Positions 9,926-39,324 of a stretch of 64,000 nt of DNA are shown piece by piece. The translations under genes were made by a program, and so were the position numbers. The notes beneath the pieces are model-generated. The model did not search any database. It had not been told where the DNA came from and saw only the letters and a list, made by a program, of their open reading frames with translations. Within the stretch, counting starts at the first letter, position 1; every line of letters begins with the position of its first letter. The stretch is from Lutibacter agarilyticus (GTDB lineage: Bacteria; Bacteroidota; Bacteroidia; Flavobacteriales; Flavobacteriaceae), in the NCBI RefSeq assembly GCF_900188235.1, contig NZ_FZNT01000011.1:62001-126000 (forward strand). Reading direction: 5' to 3'.

Positions 9926-10061
9926 ATTCTGAACAGCAAAAGATGGTTCTCAATTGTTCAGAATGACAAATTATAAAAAGTTCGTCAACCTTAACTTGTT
10001 TCAGGTTCTCACAAAAATTAGATGCCAATATCATGAGATTCTGAAACAAGTTCAGAATGAC
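9926..10061 (+). repeat. two diverged palindromic repeats
   Basis: Two inverted repeats lie between the pump gene and the next small gene: ATTCTGAAC at 9926-9934 with GTTCAGAAT at 9956-9964, and AACTTGTTTCAG at 9993-10004 with CTGAAACAAGTT at 10041-10052. Both are outlying, looser members of the 28-base palindrome family abundant at 26.8-28.2 kb: right arms are followed by TGAC, and TTCTCA/GAGATTC motifs occur between the arms. No T-run follows, so they are poor intrinsic terminators. Confidence 0.6.
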
Positions 10062-10101
10062 GTTTAAAAAAGCATAGCATTATTCACCTAAACACCTAAA
10101 A

Positions 10102-21270: not shown

Positions 21271-22995
21271 ATGAAACGGTCTAGGCTATTAACCCGCCTT
21301 TGGGAGTTTCAAAATAAGTATGGTTATATCCCTGACGTTGCCATTTCAGAAATTGCCCAAAAGCTAAGGGTTTCAAAAATTGAAATTGAAGGAGTTGTTT
21401 CTTTTTATCACTTCTTCCACAGACAACCAACTGGAAAATACATTATTTACCTCAGCAGCAGTATTATTTCAGAATTTAAAGGTTTAAACGAAATTAAAAC
21501 TGCTTTTGAAAAAGAAACAGGATGTACTTTTGGTGTGTATAATCAACATCCGCTATTCTCACTTTTCGAAACTTCCTGCATTGGTTTAAGTGATCAAGAG
21601 CCCGCTGCTCTTATCAACTTTTATCCATTTACCAATTTAACACCTAAAAAAGTCGCTTCAATTATTCAGGATTTAAAAAACGGCATACAAGTCGATTCTA
21701 TAGCTAACAAACCTGCTAGTAAAATTCAGTTCATTCCTTCGGAAGAGAAAACAGTTTTTTTTAGAGATTATCACTTAGGGAATTCATTAGAAAATTTAAA
21801 ATACTTAGATGCCAATGAAGTTTTAGACATTATTTCAGATGCTGAACTTACCGGTCGTGGTGGTGCTTTTTTTCCTACTGCACAAAAGTGGATGTATGGT
21901 AAAAACGCTACAAGTGAATTAAAATATATTATTTGTAATGCCGATGAAGGTGAACCTGGAACGTTTAAAGACAAAGCTCTTATCCAGAATTTACCCGGAC
22001 TTATTATTGAAGGAATGATTATTTCGGCCTATATAAGTGGTGCACAAAAGGGGTTTATTTATTTACGTGCAGAATACAGCTATTTACTCGCTAAATTAAA
22101 AGCTACCTTAGTTAAATTTCAGAAGCATAATTTACTTGGAAAAAACATCTTAAAAATACCTAATTTCAATTTTGATATTGAAATTCAATTGGGTGCTGGC
22201 GCCTATGTTTGTGGTGCTGAAACCGCTTTAATAGAATCTTTAGAAGGGAAACGAGGAGAGCCAAGAATTAGAAATAGTTTTCCTACAGAAAGAGGTTTTA
22301 ATAACCATGCTACCATTGTAAATAATGTGGAAACTTTTGCAATGGCTGCAAGAATTATTGAATTGGGAAGTGAGTACATTTCAAAAATTGGCACAAAAAA
22401 TAGTAAAGGCACCAAATTGTTAAGTGTAGCTGGAGATATTGCCAAGCCAGGTATTTATGAAATTGAATGGGGAACCACCGTTGAAGAGCTATTAAACCGC
22501 TGTGAAGCTAATGCTCCCTATTTTGTTCAAATTAGTGGACCTTCAGGTGAATGTATTAATGCTACTGAATTTAACCGTAAATTTTGCCAAGAAGATTTAG
22601 CCTGTGGTGGTTCGGTTATGATTTTTAATAGATCCCGAAGTATCCTTCAAATATTAGAAAACTTTATTCAATTCTTTAAAAATGAATCCTGCGGTAATTG
22701 TACGCCTTGTAGAGCTGGAAATCAGATCCTCTTTGAAAAAATACAGAAAATAAAACGGGGTATTTGCACCACCGATGATTTAAAAGATGTTCAGAAGTGG
22801 GCACAAATTATGAAACTGACAAGTCGCTGTGGGTTGGGGCAATTTTCTGGAAAAACCTTTAGTATGGCAATAGATAAATTTGACGATTATTTCAATTTAA
22901 AAGTAACCACTTGTAGTGATAATTGTAACGTTGAATTTGATATAGAACAGGCTATCTCTGATTATGAGCAGGTAGTCAAAAACACACAATTATAG
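21271..22995 (+). CDS. hoxF: NAD-linked [NiFe] hydrogenase diaphorase subunit HoxF (NuoE-like + NuoF-like)
   Basis: 574 residues. Residues about 1-150 form a NuoE/HoxE-like thioredoxin-fold domain and 165-560 a NuoF-like domain with the NADH/FMN motifs GRGGAFFPTAQKW (near 195), NADEGEPGTF (near 231), the flavin-site GAGAYVCGAETALIE (near 309), and the [4Fe-4S] motif CGNCTPC (near 472) completed by RCGLGQ (near 517). Three of four [2Fe-2S] ligands expected in the N-terminal domain are Ser (YLSSSIIS; CIGLS), so that cluster is probably lost. It oxidises or reduces NAD with electrons from the hydrogenase module. First gene of the hox operon; the next starts 16 bases downstream. Confidence 0.94.
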   Translation: MKRSRLLTRLWEFQNKYGYIPDVAISEIAQKLRVSKIEIEGVVSFYHFFHRQPTGKYIIYLSSSIISEFKGLNEIKTAFEKETGCTFGVYNQHPLFSLFETSCIGLSDQEPAALINFYPFTNLTPKKVASIIQDLKNGIQVDSIANKPASKIQFIPSEEKTVFFRDYHLGNSLENLKYLDANEVLDIISDAELTGRGGAFFPTAQKWMYGKNATSELKYIICNADEGEPGTFKDKALIQNLPGLIIEGMIISAYISGAQKGFIYLRAEYSYLLAKLKATLVKFQKHNLLGKNILKIPNFNFDIEIQLGAGAYVCGAETALIESLEGKRGEPRIRNSFPTERGFNNHATIVNNVETFAMAARIIELGSEYISKIGTKNSKGTKLLSVAGDIAKPGIYEIEWGTTVEELLNRCEANAPYFVQISGPSGECINATEFNRKFCQEDLACGGSVMIFNRSRSILQILENFIQFFKNESCGNCTPCRAGNQILFEKIQKIKRGICTTDDLKDVQKWAQIMKLTSRCGLGQFSGKTFSMAIDKFDDYFNLKVTTCSDNCNVEFDIEQAISDYEQVVKNTQL

Positions 22996-23011
22996 TTTAA
23001 TCTTATGAACT

Positions 23012-24277
23012 ATGGAAACAATAACATTCAAAATAGACGGAAGAAATTGTACTGCGGAAAAAGGCCAAAACCTCATTGAAGCAGCCAAACAAAACGGAAT
23101 ATTTATTCCAACCTTATGCCATTTTAAACACTTAAATCCTTTGGGGAGCTGTAGGGTTTGCACGGTAAAAAATAACGGACATACCATTGCTGGCTGTATT
23201 GTTAAGGTTGCTGAAGGAATGAATATTGAAGTAAACACGCCTGAATTATTAGACGCCAGAAAAGCAATTTTGGAAATGATGTTTGTTGAAGGAAACCACT
23301 TCTGCCCTTCTTGTGAAAAAAGTGGCGATTGCGATATGCAAAATTTAGCTTATGAAACAGGTATTCGCTACACTCGTTTTCCACATTTATTTGTAGATCG
23401 AATTGTTGATGCTCATCCAAAACGCATAGCTGTTAATCAAAACAGATGCATTAAATGCCAGCGCTGTATTGAAGAAGTTAATACAAATGATGGCTATAAA
23501 GTATTTCAATTAACAGAAAAAGGAAACAAAACACAAGTTTCGATTGATTATGAGCAAGAAGCCAAACTTTCAGCAGCAGAAGCTGAACACGCCATGCATA
23601 TTTGCCCTACAGGCTCCATTTTAGTAAAAGGCAAAACTTTTAGCAAGCCTTTTGGAGACAGAGCTTTTGATTATAAATTAGGAAGAAAAGATATTTCCTT
23701 AAACGATATTAAAAAACATACTACTACAAAAGGCTCTAAAAAACGCATTGCAACCACATCATTAGCCGGTTGTTTTGGCTGCCATATGTCGTTATTAGAT
23801 ATTGATTTAGGTCTTTTAGATGTTATTGAACTGGTTGACATCCACAAATCTCCTTTAACCGATATTAAAAAATTTACGGAACGTTGTGACATTGGTTTAA
23901 TTGAAGGTGGTTGCTGTAATACCGATAATGTTGAAGTGCTACGTGAATTCAGAAAAAATTGTGACATTCTTATCTCAGTTGGTGAATGTGCTATTTGGGG
24001 TGGTTTACCTGCAATGAGAAATACCGTTCCACTTGAAGCCTGTTTAAGTGAAGCCTATTTAAATTCTATGACCAGTGAAGAAGGTGAAACGATTATTCCC
24101 AATCACGAGGACATTCCGAAAATATTAAATAACGTATATGCAAATCACGATGTAGTAAAAATTGATTACCACATCCCTGGTTGCCCTCCAAATGCGAATC
24201 ATATTTGGAATGTGGTAAAACATATATTGTTTGAAGAAGAATATACGATTGCCTACTCTGAATTTAAATATGATTAA
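23012..24277 (+). CDS. hoxUY: fused HoxU-HoxY: diaphorase iron-sulfur subunit joined to hydrogenase small subunit
   Basis: 421 residues in one frame. Residues 1 to about 225 are HoxU/NuoG-N-like: a [2Fe-2S] domain (CHFKHLNPLGSCRVC), the His-Cys3 [4Fe-4S] motif (HFCPSCEKSGDC, near 97) and CIKCQRC with a distal CPTG. A linker (about 226-245) leads to HoxY: GCFGCHMSLLDID (near 252), EGGCC, GECAIWGG and PGCPPNANHIW, ligands of the proximal [4Fe-4S] cluster. HoxU and HoxY are usually separate proteins (about 234 and 209 residues in Cupriavidus), so this is a fusion of the electron-transfer link between the two modules. No stop or frameshift divides them. hoxH follows by 18 bases. Confidence 0.93.
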   Translation: METITFKIDGRNCTAEKGQNLIEAAKQNGIFIPTLCHFKHLNPLGSCRVCTVKNNGHTIAGCIVKVAEGMNIEVNTPELLDARKAILEMMFVEGNHFCPSCEKSGDCDMQNLAYETGIRYTRFPHLFVDRIVDAHPKRIAVNQNRCIKCQRCIEEVNTNDGYKVFQLTEKGNKTQVSIDYEQEAKLSAAEAEHAMHICPTGSILVKGKTFSKPFGDRAFDYKLGRKDISLNDIKKHTTTKGSKKRIATTSLAGCFGCHMSLLDIDLGLLDVIELVDIHKSPLTDIKKFTERCDIGLIEGGCCNTDNVEVLREFRKNCDILISVGECAIWGGLPAMRNTVPLEACLSEAYLNSMTSEEGETIIPNHEDIPKILNNVYANHDVVKIDYHIPGCPPNANHIWNVVKHILFEEEYTIAYSEFKYD

Positions 24278-24295
24278 CTGAAAAAAAATGAAACC

Positions 24296-25747
24296 ATGAA
24301 TAAAAGAAAAATAACTATAGAACCTATTACACGTGTTGAAGGACACGGTAAAGTAACCATTAAATTAGATGAAAACGGTAAAGTTGAAGATGCTTTTTTA
24401 CATATTGTAGAATTTAGAGGTTTCGAAAAATTTATTCAAGGACATCCGTATTGGGAAGCGCCTGTTTTAGTGCAACGTTTGTGTGGTATTTGCCCTGTAA
24501 GTCATCATTTAGCAGCAGCAAAAGCTATTGATCAATTGGTAGGTGTTGATCCTGAAAACTTATCGCCAACAGCTACAAAATTGCGAAGGTTATTACATTA
24601 CGGACAAGTTTTTCAATCGCATTCGCTACACTTTTTCTACTTGGCTTCACCTGATATTTTATTCGGAATAAATGCGCCTGCGGAAAAAAGAAATATTGTA
24701 GCGGTGGCTGCTCACAATAAAGAACTCGCTAAAAAAGGCATCTTAATGCGAAAATTTGGTCAAGAAATTATCAAGGCATTGGCAGGGAAAAAGATTCACG
24801 GAATTGTAGCAGTTCCCGGTGGTGTGTATAAAACTTTTACTAAAGAAGAACGTGCATATTTTTTAGATGGAAAACAAATTCCGAATGTTGATACTATGAT
24901 TGAATGGTCTAAAGAAATCATCGATTTTATTAAAAATTATCATACAGAAAATGCGGAATGGATTGATAATTTTGCTTCCTACCCTTCCAATCATTTAGGT
25001 TTAGTTGATCGCGAAACTGGAGCCTTAGAATTGTATGATGGAAGATTGCGATCTGTAAATTCCGAAGGAAAAGAATTGCTAAATATTGAAGATATTGACT
25101 ACCGAGACCATTTTAAAGAAGCTGTAGCACCTTGGTCTTATTTAAAATTTCCATATATGACAAAATATGGAAGAGAAGAAGGTTGGAATCGAGTTGGTCC
25201 TTTAGCTAGAATGAATACATGTTCACATATTACAACTCCCTTGGCTGAAATTGAACGTTTAATTTTTAAAGGTTATACCAATAACCAACCTAACAATATG
25301 ACCATGCACACGCATTGGGCACGCTTGATTGAAATGCTACATTGTGCTGAATTGATGAAAGAATTATTATTAGATGAAGAAATAATGGGAAGCGACTTAG
25401 TGAGAGAAGGAACGCCAAGAAATAAAGGAATTGGAATTATTGAAGCGCCAAGAGGCACCCTAATTCACGAATACCATACCGATGATAAAGGTTTAATTAC
25501 AAAATGTAATTTAATTGTTTCAACCACACATAACAATGAAGCTATGAACCGTGGTGTACGTGCAGTTGCTAGTCAAATTTTAAGCGAGAAACCCGAAATA
25601 ACAGAGCCTATGTTAAATCAGGTTGAGATAGCCATTAGAGCTTATGACCCTTGTTTAAGTTGCGCAACGCATGCTTTAGGGCAAATGCCTTTAATTGTTC
25701 AGTTAGAAGACAACCAAGGAAACTTAATTGATGAAAAAATTAGATAA
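24296..25747 (+). CDS. hoxH: NAD-linked [NiFe] hydrogenase large subunit HoxH (group 3d type)
   Basis: 483-residue catalytic subunit that binds the Ni-Fe(CN)2CO centre. The L1 motif RLCGICPVSHH (Cys at about 62 and 65) and the L2 motif DPCLSCATH (Cys453, Cys456, His459) supply all four cysteine ligands. After His459 a 24-residue tail (ALGQMPL onward) is expected to be cut off by the maturation protease, whose gene overlaps the end of this one. With HoxF and HoxUY it forms a cytosolic H2:NAD oxidoreductase. Start ATG at 24296 gives the family-typical ITIEPITRVEGHGK. Confidence 0.96.
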   Translation: MNKRKITIEPITRVEGHGKVTIKLDENGKVEDAFLHIVEFRGFEKFIQGHPYWEAPVLVQRLCGICPVSHHLAAAKAIDQLVGVDPENLSPTATKLRRLLHYGQVFQSHSLHFFYLASPDILFGINAPAEKRNIVAVAAHNKELAKKGILMRKFGQEIIKALAGKKIHGIVAVPGGVYKTFTKEERAYFLDGKQIPNVDTMIEWSKEIIDFIKNYHTENAEWIDNFASYPSNHLGLVDRETGALELYDGRLRSVNSEGKELLNIEDIDYRDHFKEAVAPWSYLKFPYMTKYGREEGWNRVGPLARMNTCSHITTPLAEIERLIFKGYTNNQPNNMTMHTHWARLIEMLHCAELMKELLLDEEIMGSDLVREGTPRNKGIGIIEAPRGTLIHEYHTDDKGLITKCNLIVSTTHNNEAMNRGVRAVASQILSEKPEITEPMLNQVEIAIRAYDPCLSCATHALGQMPLIVQLEDNQGNLIDEKIR

Positions 25748-26195
25748 CACCCTAATTATTGGGATTGGAAATAACACACGCCAAGACGATGGACTAGGTT
25801 GGTATTTTTTAGATAGTTTGGAAAAGGATGACTTTAATCCTGAAAATTTACTCTACAAATACCAATTAATGGTTGAAGATGCCGAAATTATTTCAGCATA
25901 TGAAACTGTTATTTTTGTTGATGCTTCTAAGGAACATTCAGCAAACGGATTTAAAATTGAACGGATTTTCCCTTCAGAACAAGTCGCTTTTTCAACACAT
26001 GCAGTACCTCCAAATCAAATTTTAAATTTATGTGCAACCATTTATCATAAAAAGCCAAAAGCATACGTAATTAAAATTGATGGCTATGAGTGGGATTATA
26101 AAATTGAACTCTCTAAAGAAGCGGAAACAAATTTAAATAACGCCATAAAAAGTTTCACCCAAGTACTTTTACCTAGAATTATAGCCAAAAAATAG
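25731..26195 (+). CDS. hoxW: hydrogenase maturation endopeptidase (HoxW/HyaD family)
   Basis: 154 residues from the ATG at 25731, which overlaps hoxH by 17 bases; a TTG at 25728 is a less likely start. The family motif GIGNNTRQDDGLG with the nickel-sensing acidic residue, the second motif VFVDAS and a later THAVPP His are in the usual places for proteases that trim the large-subunit C-terminus once nickel is inserted. The overlap with its substrate gene implies coupled translation. No hypA-F genes are in the window, so Ni-Fe cofactor assembly must come from elsewhere. Confidence 0.9.
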   Translation: MKKLDNTLIIGIGNNTRQDDGLGWYFLDSLEKDDFNPENLLYKYQLMVEDAEIISAYETVIFVDASKEHSANGFKIERIFPSEQVAFSTHAVPPNQILNLCATIYHKKPKAYVIKIDGYEWDYKIELSKEAETNLNNAIKSFTQVLLPRIIAKK

Positions 26196-26634: not shown

Positions 26635-26842
26635 AAGCAATATTTTAAAATGGTTTAGATGTTCAACTTTAAGGATATAATCAAACTTATTTAACATCTT
26701 TTGTTTTTTTACACAGTCTAAATGACATATGACAGATAACAGTCTTGTTCTTTACCCTTTTTACTTCTCTTGGTTTAGATCAAATTTAATACTTCTATAA
26801 ACATAAACCCCCATATACAAACATAAGATGACAGTAGTAAAT

Positions 26843-28230
26843 GTCACCCTGAGCCTGTCGAAGGGTCTCATGATTTGGAATACAATCATAAGATGCTGAA
26901 ATCGAAGATTCACGAACACAGTATTAAAAAATAAAAAAGAATGGTGAGTAAATAAATTCAGCATGACGAAATATAACTCCCCTCTTGAGAGGGGTTAGGG
27001 GTGTGTATACTTTCTTAAAAATATACTTTTTTTAACGAACAACTACACTAACCAACCAAACCGTCATTCCCGACCTGATCGGGAATCTCATGATACGGAG
27101 AAGAAAGTAAATAGTCTTCGACAAGCTCAAACTGATAACACGCAACGTCACCCTGAACTTGTTTCATGGTCTCACATAATCTTGAATACAATGATGAGAT
27201 TGCCACGTCGCGTACTCCTCACAATGACAGTAGTAAATGTCACCCTGAGCCTGTCTAAGGGTCTCATGATTTGGAATACAATCATAAGATGCTGAAATCG
27301 AAGATTCACGAACACAGTATTAAAAAATAAAAAAGAATGGTGAGTAAATAAATTCAGCATGACGAAATATAACTCCCCTCTTGAGAGGGGTTAGGGGTGT
27401 GTACATTTTTTTTTAACGAATAATTACACTAACCAACCAAACCGTCATTCCTCACCTGATGCGGAATCTCATGATATGAAAAGTAATGATGAGATTGCCA
27501 CGTCGCTATCGCTTCTCGCAATGACAGCAATAAATGTCACCCTGAACTTGTTTCAGGGTCTCATAATTTGGAATACAATCATAAGATGCTGAAATCGAAG
27601 ATTCACGAACACAGTATTAAAAAATAAAAAAGAATGGTGAGTAAATAAATTCAGCATGACGAAATTTATCTCCCCTCTTGAGAGGGGTTAGGGGTGTGTA
27701 TACTTTCTTAAAAATATACTTTTTTTAACGAACAACTACACTAACCAACCAAACCGTCATTCCCGACCTGATCGGGAATCTCATGATACGGAGAAGAAAG
27801 TAAATAGTCTTCGACAAGCTCAAACTGATAACACGCAACGTCACCCTGAACTTGTTTCATGGTCTCACATAATCTGGAATACAATGATGAGATTGCCACG
27901 TCGCGCACTCCTCACAATGACAGGAATGGAGATGCTGAAATAAATTCAGCATGACGAAATATAACTCCCCTCTTGAGAGGGGTTAGGGGTGTGTACATTT
28001 TTTTTTAACGAATAATTACACTAACCAACCAAACCGTCATTCCGCACCTGATGCGGAATCTCATGATACGAAGAAGAAAGTAAATAGTCTTCGACAAGCT
28101 CAAACTGATAACACGCAACGTCACCCTGAGCCTGTCGAAGGGTCTCATAATTTGTAAAGAAAAGCAAAAAGTCTTCGACAGGCTCAGACTGACATCGATA
28201 GCAATGGAAAGCTGTTAGGTTTAATTGCAA
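26843..28230. repeat. 1.4-kb gene-free mosaic of palindromic repeats with nested tandem duplications
   Basis: No credible gene. At least ten copies of a 28-base palindrome occur (starting at 26843, 27063, 27147, 27239, 27444, 27536, 27756, 27840, 28036, 28120), each GTC + 8-base arm + C[CT]TG[AT] loop + complementary arm + CTCA. Four copies of a second palindrome, CCCCTCTTGAGAGGGG followed by TTAGGGGTGTGTA, are at 26979, 27375, 27672 and 27967. Larger blocks recur: one block starts at 26843, 27239 and 27536, and the block beginning GTGTGTATACTTTC recurs at 27001 and 27694. Shorter units (TCTTCGACAAGCTCAAACTG, GAGATTGCCACGTCGC) are interspersed. The array separates the polysaccharide locus from the hydrogenase and yjbQ genes. 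Confidence 0.9.
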
Positions 28231-35190: not shown

Positions 35191-35219
35191 CCCCTCTTGA
35201 GAGGGGCTAGGGGTGTGTT
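35191..35219. repeat. CCCCTCTTGAGAGGGG palindrome with GGGGTGTGT tail
   Basis: CCCCTCTTGAGAGGGG at 35191-35206 is a perfect 16-base palindrome followed by CTAGGGGTGTGTT. It is the same element as the four copies in the 26.8-28.2 kb mosaic and the copy at 35556. Confidence 0.85.
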
Positions 35220-35376
35220 TAGAATTATTATTAAATTATAAAAATTCCCCAACTATTTCTTACCAATTATTAAAAATGCTCCCAAAACATTTTCTTAACG
35301 CTCTGTCATGCATTTCTCCAGCGCGCCTCCTGGTATCAGCGCACCAACTCGCCCATAGCTACCGCTATGTCGTACT

Positions 35377-35549
35377 AAAAATGTTCACTGAACATTTTCT
35401 TTACGCTCTGTCATGCATTTCTCCATCGCGCCATCTGGCCCTATCACTAAAAATGTTCACTGAACATTTTCTTCACGCTCTGTCATGCATTTCTCCATCG
35501 CGCCATCTGGACCTATCGCTAAAAATGTTCACTGAACATTTTCTTTACG
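35377..35549. repeat. 72-bp tandem repeat containing a perfect inverted repeat
   Basis: AAAATGTTCACTGAACATTTT (10-base arms around one C) recurs with ATGTTCACTG at 35381, 35453 and 35525, an exact 72-base period. Between copies lies TTACGCTCTGTCATGCATTT and a variable CATCGCGCCATCTGG segment. A diverged further copy lies at about 35277. The unit is free of stops in one plus-strand frame (24 codons), which creates an apparent but non-credible reading frame at 35213-35575; the 35183-35528 gap holds no real gene. Confidence 0.85.
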
Positions 35550-35954
35550 CTCTGTCCCCTCTTGAGAGGGGTTAGGGGTGTGTTTTTCAAATTCAAAAAT
35601 ATAAAATTCTATTGCTTTAATTACATTTTCAATTGTTTTAAATACTTCCTCATCTTTAAACCTTAATATTGTTACACCTAACTCATTTAACCTTGCTTCC
35701 TTTCTGACATCTTTTTCAAATACCTCTACCAATTCATGAGAGTATCCATCAAGTTCAATCCCTAACAATAATTCTGGGCTATAAAAATCTAAAATATAAT
35801 GATCAATTGGCTTTTGTCTACAAAATTTATAACCGTAGAGCTGTTTGTTTTTCAACTTATTCCATAATACTATTTCAGATTTTGTTGCATTGTTTCTTAG
35901 TTCTTTGGCTAATCCTTTTAATTTAGGGTTGTACCAAATTATTTTTCTTTTCAT
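35529..35954 (-). CDS. DUF559 (Vsr-like) endonuclease domain protein A
   Basis: 141 residues from the ATG at 35954 (MKRKIIWYNP); an upstream ATG at 35996 would add 14. The DUF559 core is complete: ARN/LRNNATKSEIVLWNKLKNK, the FCRQKPIDHYILDFY motif and ELDGYSHE with the Asp, Glu-x-Asp-Gly and His residues of PD-(D/E)XK/Vsr-type nucleases. The last 17 residues (TPNPSQEG onward) and the stop codon are encoded by a GGGGTGTGT palindrome and the neighbouring 72-bp repeat, so the nuclease proper ends near residue 124. Palindromes flank the gene on both sides in inverted orientation. The biological role is unknown. Confidence 0.88.
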   Translation of the reverse strand: MKRKIIWYNPKLKGLAKELRNNATKSEIVLWNKLKNKQLYGYKFCRQKPIDHYILDFYSPELLLGIELDGYSHELVEVFEKDVRKEARLNELGVTILRFKDEEVFKTIENVIKAIEFYIFEFEKHTPNPSQEGTERKENVQ

Positions 35955-36045
35955 TTTAATTGCATTTTTACTAATGTTACCTATTCTTGGCAACATTTAA
36001 TCTATAAATCTAATGATTTTAATATTTATAAATATATAACAGATT

Positions 36046-36293
36046 AAATACACACCCCTAATCCTATCTAGAGGGGAATTACTCATTTGAAAACTGAAAT
36101 AGACTATGAACAGATCAAATACACACCCCTAACCCCTCTCTAGAGGGGAATTACTCATTTGAAAGCTAAAATAAACTAACAACAAATCAAATACACACCC
36201 CTAGCCCCTCTCAAGAGGGGAATTACTGATTTGAAAACTTAAATAGATTAACAACAAATCAAATACACACCCTAACCCCTCTCTAAAGGGGAA
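36046..36293. repeat. four tandem 71-72-bp repeats with C-rich palindromes
   Basis: Units begin AAATACACACCCCTA at 36046, 36117, 36189 and 36261 (71, 72 and 72 base steps). Each contains ACACACCCCTAACCCC, a CTCTAGAGGGG-type palindrome and a TTACTCATTTGAAAACTGAA-like spacer. This is the inverted orientation of the element at 35556, so the DUF559 gene A is bracketed. The last copy also encodes the end of the next gene (PLERG and the TAG stop at 36272-36274). Confidence 0.88.
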
Positions 36294-38479
36294 TGAAATA
36301 GTTTCCCTATCTCCTCTTCAAACTTTTCCAATGTATATTGCCTAGACCAATCCATTGCTTTTTGTGCCTGCTCTTTATAGATCGACGGATTTTGTAAATA
36401 GGTTTCGATTGCTGAAATAATTTCATTTGAATTTGCATTTACAATACTGCCTCGTTTTCCAAAATCCAACATAGACGGTATACACGATACGTTACTTGTA
36501 ATGGGTAAGCAGCCCCAAAACATAGCTTCAGCCACCACCTTTGGCCATCCTTCAGATTTCGAAATAAATACTAAAAAATGTGCTTGTTGATAGGCTTTCT
36601 TCACTATTTCTTTTGAAGTATTTCCAAGTAAAAAAACAACATCCTTTAAGTCATTAACTAATATATAATTTTCGACATTAATCCGCTCAACGCCGTCTCC
36701 ATACATATCCAATTGTACAGAGTACCCGTTTTTCTTTAGTTGATGCACTACTTGGACACTTAATAAGGGTTGCTTTCCTGGGGTGAATCCACCTACGTAG
36801 ATGAATTTTAGATTTGTTGATTGAGACCCTTCGACAGGCTCAGGGTGACATTCAGCACTGTCATTGCGAGGAGCCTTTCGACTACGCTCAAGACAGGTTG
36901 GCGACGTGGCAATCTCATCATTGCCTTCCACATCATAAGATTCCGCATCAGGTGCGGAATGACGTTCCGTGTTGTCATTGCGAGGAGTGTGCGACGTGGC
37001 AATCTCATTATTACCTTCCACATCATGAGATTCCCGATCAGGTCGGGAATGACGGTTGGCGGAGAAAGGCTGAGGGTGACGTTCCGATTCGTCATGCTGA
37101 ACTTGATTCAGCATCTCATCATTGCTTTTCATATCGTGAGACCCTTCGACAGGCTCAGGGTGACATTCAGTATTGTCAGTCTGAGCTTGTCGAAGACTTT
37201 TTACACTCTTCTCTATATCATAAGATTCCGCATCAGGTGCGGAATGACGCTCTGTGTTGTCATTGCGAGGAGTGTGCGACGTGGCAATCTCATCATTGGT
37301 TTCCAAATCATGAGATTCCGCATCAAGTGCGGAATGACGGTTGGCTGAGAAAGGCTCAGGGTGACATTTTGTATCGTCATTGCAAGAAGTAAGCGACGTG
37401 GTAATCTGATCCTTTGAAAAGATAGCTTCACTGCGTTCGCTATGACGTTCTAATAATTCCTTCTCAGAATAACTAGCCGTAAAAAACGGCATGATATTGC
37501 TACTTTGTTTAGACCATTCACCATATACCAGTACTTTGCAATTTCTGGTTAAAAAAGTATTGCTCACCATCCATTTTTGCAATTTATAACTATAGGGTTG
37601 CTTGCTTTTCGGATCCCAATTACCTGCATATTTTACCGTTTTGGGTTTGTGAGGAAATAATACCTGTACAAAACATCCCAACAAGCCTATATTACCAGGG
37701 CAACGCAGGTGAATATGATCTGCCCATTGCATGGCTTTGTATATTTGATATATTATGAAAGGGATTTTAAAAATAGCTTTTACTGCATTTTTTAATGAGG
37801 TAATATCTATTGACTGTATTTTAGTGAGGTGGATTGTTTTTGTTTCGTCATGCTGAACTTGGTTTAGTAGCTCATCATTACTTTTCATATCGTGAGATTC
37901 CGCATCAGGTGCGGAATGACGTTCCGTGTTGTCATTGCGAGGAGTGTGCGACGTGGCAATCTCATCATTGAATTCCATAGCGTGAGACCCTTCGACAGGC
38001 TCAGGGTGACATTCAGCGCTGTCAGTCTGAGCTTGTCGAAGACTTTTTACATTCCTTTTCAAATCATGAGATTCCGCATCAAGTGCGGAATGACGTTCCG
38101 TTACGTCATGCTGAACTTGATTCAGCATCTCATCATTGCTTTTCAAATCATGAGACCCTTCGACAGGCTCAGGGTGACATCCTGTTTCGTCATGCTGAAC
38201 TTGATTACTCACCAATCTTTTTTTAATGCTGTGTTCGTGAATCTTCGATTTCAGCATCTCATCATTGACTTCCAAATGATGAGATGCCCGATCAAGTCGG
38301 GAATGACGGTTGTATTTAGATTCAATAGAGGTCAATTCTTTCTTCGAAAAGGGAGCTACAATCTTCACCTCATCTACATATTTCAACCATAAATTCATTT
38401 CTTTTACATAAGGTTCGTAAGCAAAGAGTTCTTGCTCATGAATTTTATGTTCGGCATGCGTAATGATGGTGAATTTCAT
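36272..38479 (-). CDS. family 4 glycosyltransferase interrupted in frame by about 370 residues of repeat-encoded peptide
   Basis: 735 residues from the ATG at 38479 (MKFTIITHAEHK). Three parts look like a normal GT4 enzyme: residues about 1-57, a middle block from IHLTKIQSIDITSLK (AMQWADHIHLRCPGNIG, KYAGNWDPKSKQP) and a C-terminal domain from LKFIYVGGFTPGKQ with SEGWPKVVAEAMFWG. They add up to about 365 residues, the usual GT4 size. Two stretches, about 158 and 212 residues, are translated palindromic repeats (CHPEPVEGSH, RHSALDAESHD, MLNQVQHD, EIATSHTPRND, SLRQAQTD). They sit in a loop of the first domain and in the linker between the two Rossmann domains. No stop or frameshift is present, so a full-length product is possible; activity is uncertain. 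Confidence 0.85.
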   Translation of the reverse strand: MKFTIITHAEHKIHEQELFAYEPYVKEMNLWLKYVDEVKIVAPFSKKELTSIESKYNRHSRLDRASHHLEVNDEMLKSKIHEHSIKKRLVSNQVQHDETGCHPEPVEGSHDLKSNDEMLNQVQHDVTERHSALDAESHDLKRNVKSLRQAQTDSAECHPEPVEGSHAMEFNDEIATSHTPRNDNTERHSAPDAESHDMKSNDELLNQVQHDETKTIHLTKIQSIDITSLKNAVKAIFKIPFIIYQIYKAMQWADHIHLRCPGNIGLLGCFVQVLFPHKPKTVKYAGNWDPKSKQPYSYKLQKWMVSNTFLTRNCKVLVYGEWSKQSSNIMPFFTASYSEKELLERHSERSEAIFSKDQITTSLTSCNDDTKCHPEPFSANRHSALDAESHDLETNDEIATSHTPRNDNTERHSAPDAESYDIEKSVKSLRQAQTDNTECHPEPVEGSHDMKSNDEMLNQVQHDESERHPQPFSANRHSRPDRESHDVEGNNEIATSHTPRNDNTERHSAPDAESYDVEGNDEIATSPTCLERSRKAPRNDSAECHPEPVEGSQSTNLKFIYVGGFTPGKQPLLSVQVVHQLKKNGYSVQLDMYGDGVERINVENYILVNDLKDVVFLLGNTSKEIVKKAYQQAHFLVFISKSEGWPKVVAEAMFWGCLPITSNVSCIPSMLDFGKRGSIVNANSNEIISAIETYLQNPSIYKEQAQKAMDWSRQYTLEKFEEEIGKLFHSPLERG
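36812..37447. repeat. in-gene palindromic repeat block 2 (interdomain insertion)
   Basis: About 636 bases, a multiple of 3, composed of 28-base palindromes and relatives: one starting at 36822, GAGATTCCGCATCAGGTGCG-type units, TCTTCGACAAGCTCAGACTG-type units and TTGCGAGGAGTGTGCGACGT units. Neighbouring elements are joined head to head as TGAC, 10-13 bases, GTCA. The block is open in several frames on both strands, so it carries few stop codons whichever way it is read. Confidence 0.88.
37835..38308. repeat. in-gene palindromic repeat block 1
   Basis: About 474 bases, a multiple of 3, with the same palindrome classes as block 2, for example GTC-ATGCTGAA-CTTGA-TTCAGCAT-CTCA at 38105-38132. It also carries the spacer segment TGTTCGTGAATCTTCGATTT, which occurs in reverse orientation in the 26.8-28.2 kb mosaic (ATCGAAGATTCACGAACACA), so sequence has moved between mosaic and gene. 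Confidence 0.88.
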
Positions 38480-38625
38480 TGTTTCAGAATTACTTATTGA
38501 GTCAAAAATAAAACTAAATAGCAATATACAATCATGTTTTAAGCTTTTATCCCTAAACTAATTGAAGTTTTTTGCTTTTTGTAACTGCTATACGCTTTCA
38601 CGCTTTTGCCACTACTCATATACAA

Positions 38626-38935
38626 GTTTACCCGCTTTTGCCCCAACCCTAAAGGGTGAGCGGAAAAACTACAATATTAAATTCTTGCTTTGATTTTGTA
38701 AACTAATAAGTTAAATCAAGGATATTTTCACGCTTTTTGCTCCAACCCTAAAGGGTGAGCGGGTAAACTACATTATTCAACAGAATAAGGTAACTGTAAA
38801 AACTACCATATTTAATTCAAATCATTAGCTTGAAAAACAGACTCCCTTTAGGGCTGGGGAAAACTATTTTTCAATACAATTTTCGAGAATGTTTTCACGC
38901 TTTTTGCCCCACCCCTAAAGGGTGAGCGTGAAAAC
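38626..38935. repeat. cluster of ACCCTAAAGGGT-type Y-shaped palindromes, left of DUF559 gene B
   Basis: The 38480-38934 gap has no gene. Elements of about 45 bases, outer arms like GTTTTCACGCT / AGCGTGAAAAC around an inner CACCC-CTAAA-GGGTG hairpin, lie at 38626-38669, 38725-38768 and 38891-38935. A half element in inverse orientation (CTCCCTTTAGGGCTGGGG) is at 38842-38864. The last one overlaps the TAG stop codon of the DUF559 gene by one base. Confidence 0.85.
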
Positions 38936-39324
38936 TATTTTTCAATTTCATTCCTAATTTGATTTATGACTGATAGGATGTCATTTTCAACTTCTTTGTT
39001 TTTAAATCTTATCACTTTCAATCCGTTAAATTCTAGGAAATTGGTTCTTTCTTTATCTTTTATTATTTGCTCTTGTTTATCGTGGTATTCTCCATCAACT
39101 TCAATGACTAAATTATATTTGTGTATATAAAAATCGACAATATAAATTCCTATAGGATGTTGTCTTCTAATTTTACAACCTAATAATCTTTTGTCTTTCA
39201 ACTTATTCCATAATAATGTTTCAGAATTCGTCATATCTTCCCTCAAGATTTGGGCTTTTTTGAAAGTTCCACTGTTTGCTCCCTTCCACATGCTATCATC
39301 TAATTGAATTTTACTTATTTTCAT
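38935..39324 (-). CDS. DUF559 (Vsr-like) endonuclease domain protein B
   Basis: 129 residues. Motifs are as in protein A: REDMTNSETLLWNKLKDKRL, GCKIRRQHPIGIYIVDFYIH and IEVDGEYHDKQ, followed by LKVIRFKNKEV, with the presumed catalytic Asp, Glu and Asp in place. The A and B proteins are diverged paralogues and are each surrounded by a different palindrome family. The stop codon lies at the edge of the palindrome 38891-38935, and duplicated repeat blocks flank the gene. It interrupts the glycosyltransferase series on the same strand. Confidence 0.88.
   Translation of the reverse strand: MKISKIQLDDSMWKGANSGTFKKAQILREDMTNSETLLWNKLKDKRLLGCKIRRQHPIGIYIVDFYIHKYNLVIEVDGEYHDKQEQIIKDKERTNFLEFNGLKVIRFKNKEVENDILSVINQIRNEIEK

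Follow-up and report, generated by a model that had tools for sequence, protein, structure and literature searches.

A glycosyltransferase gene with two repeat-encoded blocks

The 64,000-nucleotide stretch of Lutibacter agarilyticus DNA analysed here (contig NZ_FZNT01000011.1, positions 62,001-126,000; hereafter the window) carries, on its reverse strand at 36272-38479, a gene for a GT4-type glycosyltransferase whose coding sequence is interrupted in two places by in-frame arrays of short palindromes of the repetitive extragenic palindrome (REP) kind, which together account for about half of the gene. The open reading frame (ORF; 36272-38524, reverse strand) encodes 750 residues from a TTG codon, or 735 residues from the ATG at 38479, and has no internal stop. 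The Pfam family Glycos_transf_1 matches residues 566-723 of the 750-residue ORF with 77.1 bits, against a cut-off of 26.4. Two glutamates, E643 and E651, are unchanged across 68 aligned rows of the glycosyltransferase; we take them to be the E-x7-E motif of GT4 glycosyltransferases. Based on sequence and structural modelling, the product of 36272-38479 is a GT4-type glycosyltransferase of GT-B fold with a predicted activity. Its neighbourhood is a cluster of glycosyltransferase and polysaccharide genes, as read by eye from the translations.

In coding direction, and with all segments on the reverse strand, the gene starts with an N-terminal core segment (38309-38479), which shares 56 of 57 residues with the orthologue of a congener, G020, and is modelled with block means of the predicted local distance difference test score (pLDDT) of 85-96. 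Block 1 (37841-38308, 156 codons) follows at a junction that we call J1, in a loop of the first domain, and is a REP array by its covariance model matches. The middle core segment (37448-37840) completes the first Rossmann-like domain and is the same as in G020 at 108 of the 113 residues compared. Block 2 (36821-37447, 209 codons), also a REP array, occupies the interdomain linker at the second junction, J2, with pLDDT below 50 at residues 365-542. The C-terminal Rossmann-like domain, which holds the Pfam match, and a short repeat-derived tail (36272-36820) complete the gene.

Both blocks consist of short palindromes in either orientation. In block 1, the first REP monomer in coding direction lies at 38280-38308 (reverse strand, 42.6 bits with our covariance model R1), another, encoding RHSAPDAES, at 37893-37921 (reverse, 44.4 bits), and the last, in the opposite orientation and read as ELLNQVQHD, at 37846-37874 (forward, 25.2 bits). 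In block 2, monomers read as RHSALDAES (37311-37339, reverse, 46.2 bits) and, in the opposite orientation, EMLNQVQHD (37090-37118, forward, 46.1 bits) precede the last one, CHPEPVEGS (36822-36850, reverse, 33.3 bits).

The initial annotation had described two stop-free in-frame blocks of 474 and 636 bases. Counted in codons, they measure 468 and 627 nt, lengths that are multiples of three by construction and hence no test by themselves; their coding frame contains no stop, and their REPs keep a single phase per strand. The whole junctions span 504 nt (J1) and 657 nt (J2), against 39 and 48 nt in the near-empty orthologue of the congener G028, where 12 residues separate a conserved tyrosine from the next core motif at J1. 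An intergenic array of the same REPs (26842-28194, forward strand), which served as a non-coding control, contains 18-40 stops per frame in all six frames, against none in the blocks when these are read as coded. The observation of two in-frame REP blocks is thus confirmed.

The REP family

Each REP unit is built of unpaired CGTC or TGTC, a hairpin with a stem of 8 bp and a loop of 5 nt, and a tail, for instance CTCA; in the blocks, a longer GCGAG type is intermixed with these units. Since a strict pattern for one REP type gave only 4 sites, we built a covariance model from 18 rows, taken from several genomes and picked partly by tag and pairing. The tag is CGTC or TGTC in all 18 rows, which is partly the result of choosing rows that have it, and 97.2% of the stem cells are paired, a figure inflated by the pairing filter. 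Seven of the eight stem pairs vary on both sides (37 of 144 cells, with one G-U cell in 144). The first stem pair is A-T in 18 of 18 rows and the second T-A in 15.

With this model, at least 150 REP sites were found in the genome of the window, G000 (150 of 1954 first-look candidates scored). Many of them form pairs with tags outward, according to a list read by eye; a lone intergenic pair at 9983-10062, identified by the covariance model on neither strand in particular, has its tails facing. On base-shuffled sequence (163,822 bases) the REP finder returned nothing, and Rfam gave no match at the gathering threshold in the window.

CGTC-tagged REPs have been reported for Bacteroidetes and include RPE-4 and RPE-6, two of the Rickettsia palindromic elements (RPEs), of Rickettsia conorii (Di Nocera et al. 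2013, PMC3733652). According to that paper they are dispersed and numerous, chiefly as HH dimers, with stems of 8 or 9 bp, loops of 4 or 5 nt and A-T residues at the first two stem positions. They apparently lack a dedicated transposase, most, not all, of their tails fit CCA, and in Thauera and R. conorii groups of copies encode 43-82 aa. The Lutibacter repeats share with them the CGTC/TGTC tag, the 8-bp stem, the 5-nt loop, the A-T first pair, the intragenic copies and the absence of an associated transposase. On the other hand, their tails are CTCA, CTTT, CTGT, CTGA and CTGC and the like, not the CCA of the superfamily. From their sequence, we file them as a variant of the CGTC-tagged superfamily that belongs to none of its four named families. 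The likeness to Rickettsia palindromic elements put forward in the initial annotation was therefore apt, RPE-4 and RPE-6 being grouped with CGTC repeats in the part of PMC3733652 used here.

Orthologues in the genus and beyond

We searched 38 genus genomes with the G028 protein (E 1e-25 or better). Matches were found in 22, of which 5 are distant (30-32% identity) and 17 are the orthologue. Strict REPs lie within the ORF of 12 of these 17 (G000, G002, G003, G007, G009, G012, G015, G020, G021, G029, G032 and G035). Four more (G008, G010, G022 and G034) have a longer J2 with a REP-like peptide, read by eye, and no strict REP, and G028 alone is near-empty at both junctions. J2 is thereby enlarged in 16 of the 17 orthologues, that of G029 being partial, and J1 is lengthened in part of the genus only: in G002, G003, G010, G015, G022 and G034 it is as long as in G028. 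In the outgroup G042, both junctions are of near-native length. Congeners hold differing REP types and block sizes at the same two junctions, up to more than 500 codons in G020.

The initial annotation had proposed to look among related strains for orthologues lacking both blocks at the same junctions, and G028 is such a case, with other REP types and sizes at these positions in congeners. It had also named frame-breaking numbers of repeats as evidence against its reading; none was seen in the 17 orthologues, among which G020 is split over two contig ends within its array and G029 leaves its contig. By their coordinates, the stops that appear in some orthologue rows lie upstream of the start or are the terminal stop.

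The analysis also covered 80 loci from titled records, one of which had no ORF with the motif. REPs occur in the ORF of 3 of the 79 parsed loci (L147, L148 and L160), all Lutibacter. The remaining 76 have ORFs of 370-401 aa with no REP, and at least one of them (L143) is also Lutibacter; this agrees with the earlier claim that the protein outside the blocks has the normal size of the enzyme. J2 measures 22 residues in 43 of the 47 loci where it was measured, 32 of the 79 having given no J2 length. Our tables of J1 and J2 lengths omit 60 and 66 of 175 proteins, respectively, including in both cases G000 and G020, which were measured separately. A protein search limited to about 412-1312 aa returned 77 homologues (E 1e-30 or better); this range selects for inserts, and the count gives no frequency.

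The arrays themselves appear to change. The J1 array of G020 contains identical 240-bp units, with 6 of 7 windows the same on one contig and 5 of 5 on the other, which indicates that growth by whole 80-codon units is recent in this genome, if the assembly is right. The blocks of G021 match each other and their own flanks at 269-327 bits, and those of other genomes at 97 bits or less.

Protein model and selection on the core

The near-empty G028 orthologue was modelled with a mean pLDDT of 91.6, and its best matches in the PDB are 6eji, BshA and MshA. The AlphaFold2 model of the full protein has a mean pLDDT of 68.6, with 314 residues at 90 or more, and in its core the strands and helices follow one another as they do in the orthologue. 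In the full model, J1 lies between strands 53-55 and 216-221 and J2 between the two domains, which bears out the earlier placement of the insertions in a loop of the first domain and between the domains. Residues with pLDDT below 50 make up 85 of 156 in block 1 and 182 of 209 in block 2. Over 342 codons of core compared between G000 and G020, the nonsynonymous rate (dN) is 0.039 and the synonymous rate (dS) 0.477. This ratio of 0.08 indicates that the core enzyme is under purifying selection.

One reading frame

In the ORFs of the glycosyltransferase orthologues, the first base of a codon is where all 54 forward REPs begin, and all 47 reverse REPs share one phase, that is, 101 of 101 REPs keep one phase per orientation. 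The second G020 contig piece may repeat the first, as at least 480 bases are common to the two contig ends; without it, 41 forward and 40 reverse REPs remain, again all in one phase per orientation (81/81). Many of these REPs are copies of one another, hence non-independent. In G000, the 19 REPs of the gene all keep one phase per strand, against mixed phases in the intergenic array 26842-28194. Same-strand spacings below 400 bp, taken modulo 3, are distributed 67/0/0 inside the glycosyltransferase ORFs versus 30/10/9 outside them at the same loci, the latter being mixed yet enriched for multiples of 3. Furthermore, a stretch common to the gene and the intergenic array contains two in-frame TAA codons in all three intergenic copies and no TAA in the one G000 gene copy or in 13 G020 copies (7 + 6 on two possibly overlapping pieces).

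To what extent the sequence of a REP dictates its frame can be seen in 123 REPs outside the glycosyltransferase, a set that includes four REPs in other genes and three chance matches. Forward phase 0 is open in 118 of them, phase 1 in 115 and phase 2 in 9; the reverse phases are open in 97, 46 and 0. The mean hydropathy is -1.02 in forward phase 0 and +1.20 in phase 1, and the genes counted use the hydrophilic phase 0 only. Since both forward phases are about equally open, openness alone fails to explain the forward phase choice. It would be explained if a hydrophilic peptide is selected for, or by the way in which REP pairs are spaced.

In-frame REPs in other genes

Our survey covered the window and 55 stretches of G000, with 157 strict REPs. 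Three further genes of this genome contain REPs, all read in the same frame as those of the glycosyltransferase: the genes for GDP-mannose dehydratase (one REP), the type I specificity subunit HsdS (one) and mevalonate diphosphate decarboxylase (two). In mevalonate diphosphate decarboxylase, strict REPs occupy one loop in 9 of the 30 Lutibacter orthologues that were inspected (L135; L348-L377), with all 13 strict REPs in the same phase and remnants, read by eye, in others. The GDP-mannose dehydratase insert occurs in G000 only, among the 13 parsed of 15 orthologues; the enzyme of G022 has a longer loop, from which the REP peptide is absent. The HsdS copy (L121, 1801) lies upstream of the second specificity domain. 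In Psychroserpens, two REP-like pairs of a leucyl-tRNA synthetase keep the same frame; this case, which came out of a peptide search in that very frame, is not counted.

Some candidates were set aside. REP matches in L108, L127 and L139 were judged to be chance, the peptide there not being the REP peptide, and those near ORF starts (L090, L099, L105 and L114) were excluded because the true start probably lies downstream of them. We also took as spurious an ORF of L118 with two REPs (140 aa), two ORFs of L058 (185 and 189 aa) and antisense ORFs in the blocks of the window.

Candidate mobilising functions

A RAYT (REP-associated tyrosine transposase) as mobiliser was dropped, Y1_Tnp (PF01797) having no match in G000. 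Small GIY-YIG genes offered another candidate. One lies at most 0.9 kb 3' of the glycosyltransferase in at least seven genomes (G002, G003, G007, G009, G012, G020 and G021). REPs were present at 12 of 20 other small GIY-YIG loci (L223-L242; one per genome, from the top of the list, non-random), with 43 REPs in 79,631 bases, of which 25 lie within about 300 bp of the domain, versus 2 of 20 uvrC control loci, with 2 REPs in 84,191 bases (Fisher p = 0.002).

We therefore entertain, as an unlikely idea, that a small stand-alone GIY-YIG nuclease mobilises the Lutibacter CGTC REPs in a REPtron-like manner, taking the place of the tyrosine transposase, and that the glycosyltransferase loops are sites where REPs can land and be tolerated. 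Against it stand the non-random choice of loci, the DUF559 genes that flank the glycosyltransferase of the window on both sides in place of GIY-YIG, and a phylum-wide sample in which REPs occurred at 7 of 30 GIY-YIG versus 3 of 30 UPF0102 loci of the same genomes (p = 0.30, not significant). The GIY-YIG genes may just happen to lie in regions that are variable and rich in REPs. We consider their association a lead for the genus and no proof of mobilisation; the open-licence papers gave no match for GIY-YIG together with REPs.

Two DUF559 nuclease-like ORFs lie beside the glycosyltransferase, at 35529-35996 and at 38935-39324 (reverse strand), among three matches genome-wide. DUF559 as a REP partner was dropped, three copies being too few for testing.

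Origin and significance of the blocks

Considering these results, we think it likely that the blocks are arrays of dispersed, selfish CGTC-tagged REPs that are tolerated in two loops of a working glycosyltransferase, filtered for frame, and subject to turnover and tandem growth. This interpretation draws directly on the repeats, the two junctions, the near-empty outgroup sites, the single frame, the purifying selection on the core and the other genes with in-frame REPs. REPs would enter many places, and the survivors would be those copies that keep the frame, are free of stops and encode a hydrophilic peptide in a loop. Arrays could then grow by exchange of units that are multiples of three, such as the 240-bp units of G020, and over time units may be replaced by other REP types. 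The block peptide would be translated together with the enzyme, in which it is probably nearly neutral padding and no new catalytic part. An RPE-bearing guanylate kinase that is still active, with a changed substrate affinity (PMC2229807, in the part considered), supports the tolerance of such inserts.

Several observations weigh against parts of this interpretation. Within-genome homogenisation is clear for G021 only, and barely so for G035; the blocks of G000 and G020 resemble each other, and J1 of G007, both junctions of G009, J1 of G012 and J2 of G032 are closer to the block of another genome than to their own other junction. The tree of cores is poorly resolved, with 15 of 35 inner forks open, and a single ancestral insertion per junction is therefore indistinguishable from repeated ones; the part of PMC3767692 considered gives the same two choices, filled once or often, for RPE-4/6/7. 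Few of the sites behind the one-frame case are independent, five in G000, with (1/2)^5 = 0.03 if the two open forward frames are equally likely, and L099, dropped as lying upstream of a start, reads the hydrophobic frame. In G021, intergenic arrays downstream of the gene (L041, 2912-4424) have open stretches of 239 and 93 codons in the frame of the coding REPs, which makes openness alone weak evidence of coding. AlphaFold2 renders residues 64-91 and 116-151 of block 1 as helices with middling confidence, and a low pLDDT is not proof of disorder. As to near-neutrality, the inserts are retained in many species.

The enlarged J2 in 16 of 17 genus orthologues, the tolerance of sizes up to hundreds of residues and the modelled helices of block 1, would fit adaptive linkers, that is, loops kept for a function in the enzyme or with partners of the polysaccharide pathway (spacing, membrane or complex contacts, tuning). 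We find this improbable, given that neither length nor sequence is conserved (J2 varies from 35 to 173 residues among the enlarged genus rows), that G028 and 76 of the 79 titled-record loci do without blocks, and that REPs are present in unrelated genes too. A role of the REPs in DNA or RNA, as hairpins acting on transcription, gyrase or mRNA stability, would make their coding a by-product. It fits the stem covariation, seen in rows picked partly for pairing, and the presence of REPs in the intergenic space of the locus; yet REP-like peptides stay in frame in G008, G010, G022 and G034 where no strict REP is left, and the window lacks an Rfam match, and we regard such a role as unlikely on balance.

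An assembly artefact or a pseudogene is very unlikely. The G020 array does leave two contig ends, where identical units could be miscounted, but blocks are also present in G012, a genome in one contig, and in many further assemblies, and the dN/dS of the core together with the invariant E643 and E651 argues against decay of the gene. We give hardly any credence to removal of the blocks after transcription or translation, by intein-like splicing or ribosomal bypass. The normal length of the remaining enzyme would be in keeping with it, but the Pfam matches (E 1 or better) include no splicing domain, the removal signals themselves not having been searched for, and with the block bypassed, nothing would require its frame always to be open.

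Tolerated, frame-filtered REP arrays have precedents. With RPE-4/6/7, as described in the parts of PMC3767692 and PMC2229807 considered, they share in-frame insertion in conserved genes, solvent-exposed positions, the occupation of the same sites of orthologues by different element groups, and an ATGAC motif that is the complement of GTCAT here. They differ in phylum, in their longer tandem arrays and in the measured phase bias. With 156 and 209 codons, and more than 500 in G020, the coding arrays exceed those described in PMC3733652, and two junctions of one gene are filled in many species of a genus. They resemble the REPs with RAYT transposases (GTAG superfamily) as short tagged palindromes in pairs and clusters, with a different tag and no Y1_Tnp match. 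Open-licence papers gave no match for the peptide CHPEPVEGSH or for flavobacterial REPs as in-frame insertions, and for palindromes in Lutibacter they gave three papers whose titles concern other matters. Our searches of this literature turned up no account of the genus, of arrays that run to hundreds of codons, of the filling of two junctions in a single gene across many species, of a measured one-frame rule, of another gene with such a history or of the GIY-YIG lead.

We regard the feature as well explained, namely as known biology at unusual size and clarity, in-frame REPs and RPEs at orthologous sites being already known. What the analysis adds to the initial annotation is a named REP superfamily, the spread through the genus, the recurrence of the same frame in other genes and a far longer array in a sister genome. 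Within one genus, and partly in cultured species, the same enzyme ranges from a loop that is near-empty to arrays hundreds of codons long. Comparing these natural variants allows a test of the long-standing question how selfish palindromes turn into protein. The one-frame rule, under which the hydrophilic frame is used although the hydrophobic one is open about equally often, suggests that selection acts on the protein. In annotation, REP-encoded peptides are to be expected; they lengthen proteins and add no new domains.

Other features of the window

At its 3' end the glycosyltransferase gene runs into 72-bp repeats (36063-36278) with CCCCTCTC..GAGGGG, which encode its last codons (SPLERG). 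This tail is a third repeat-derived part of the gene, unrelated to the REP blocks. A motif resembling these repeats returns in the intergenic array 26842-28194. A further intergenic repeat array at 35213-35575 (forward strand) reads as a 120-aa ORF with MFTEHFLHALSCISPSRHL repeats and is probably no gene. Farther away, at 21271-26195 (forward strand), lie genes that, from their translations read by eye, resemble those for an NAD-linked hydrogenase and its maturation protease.

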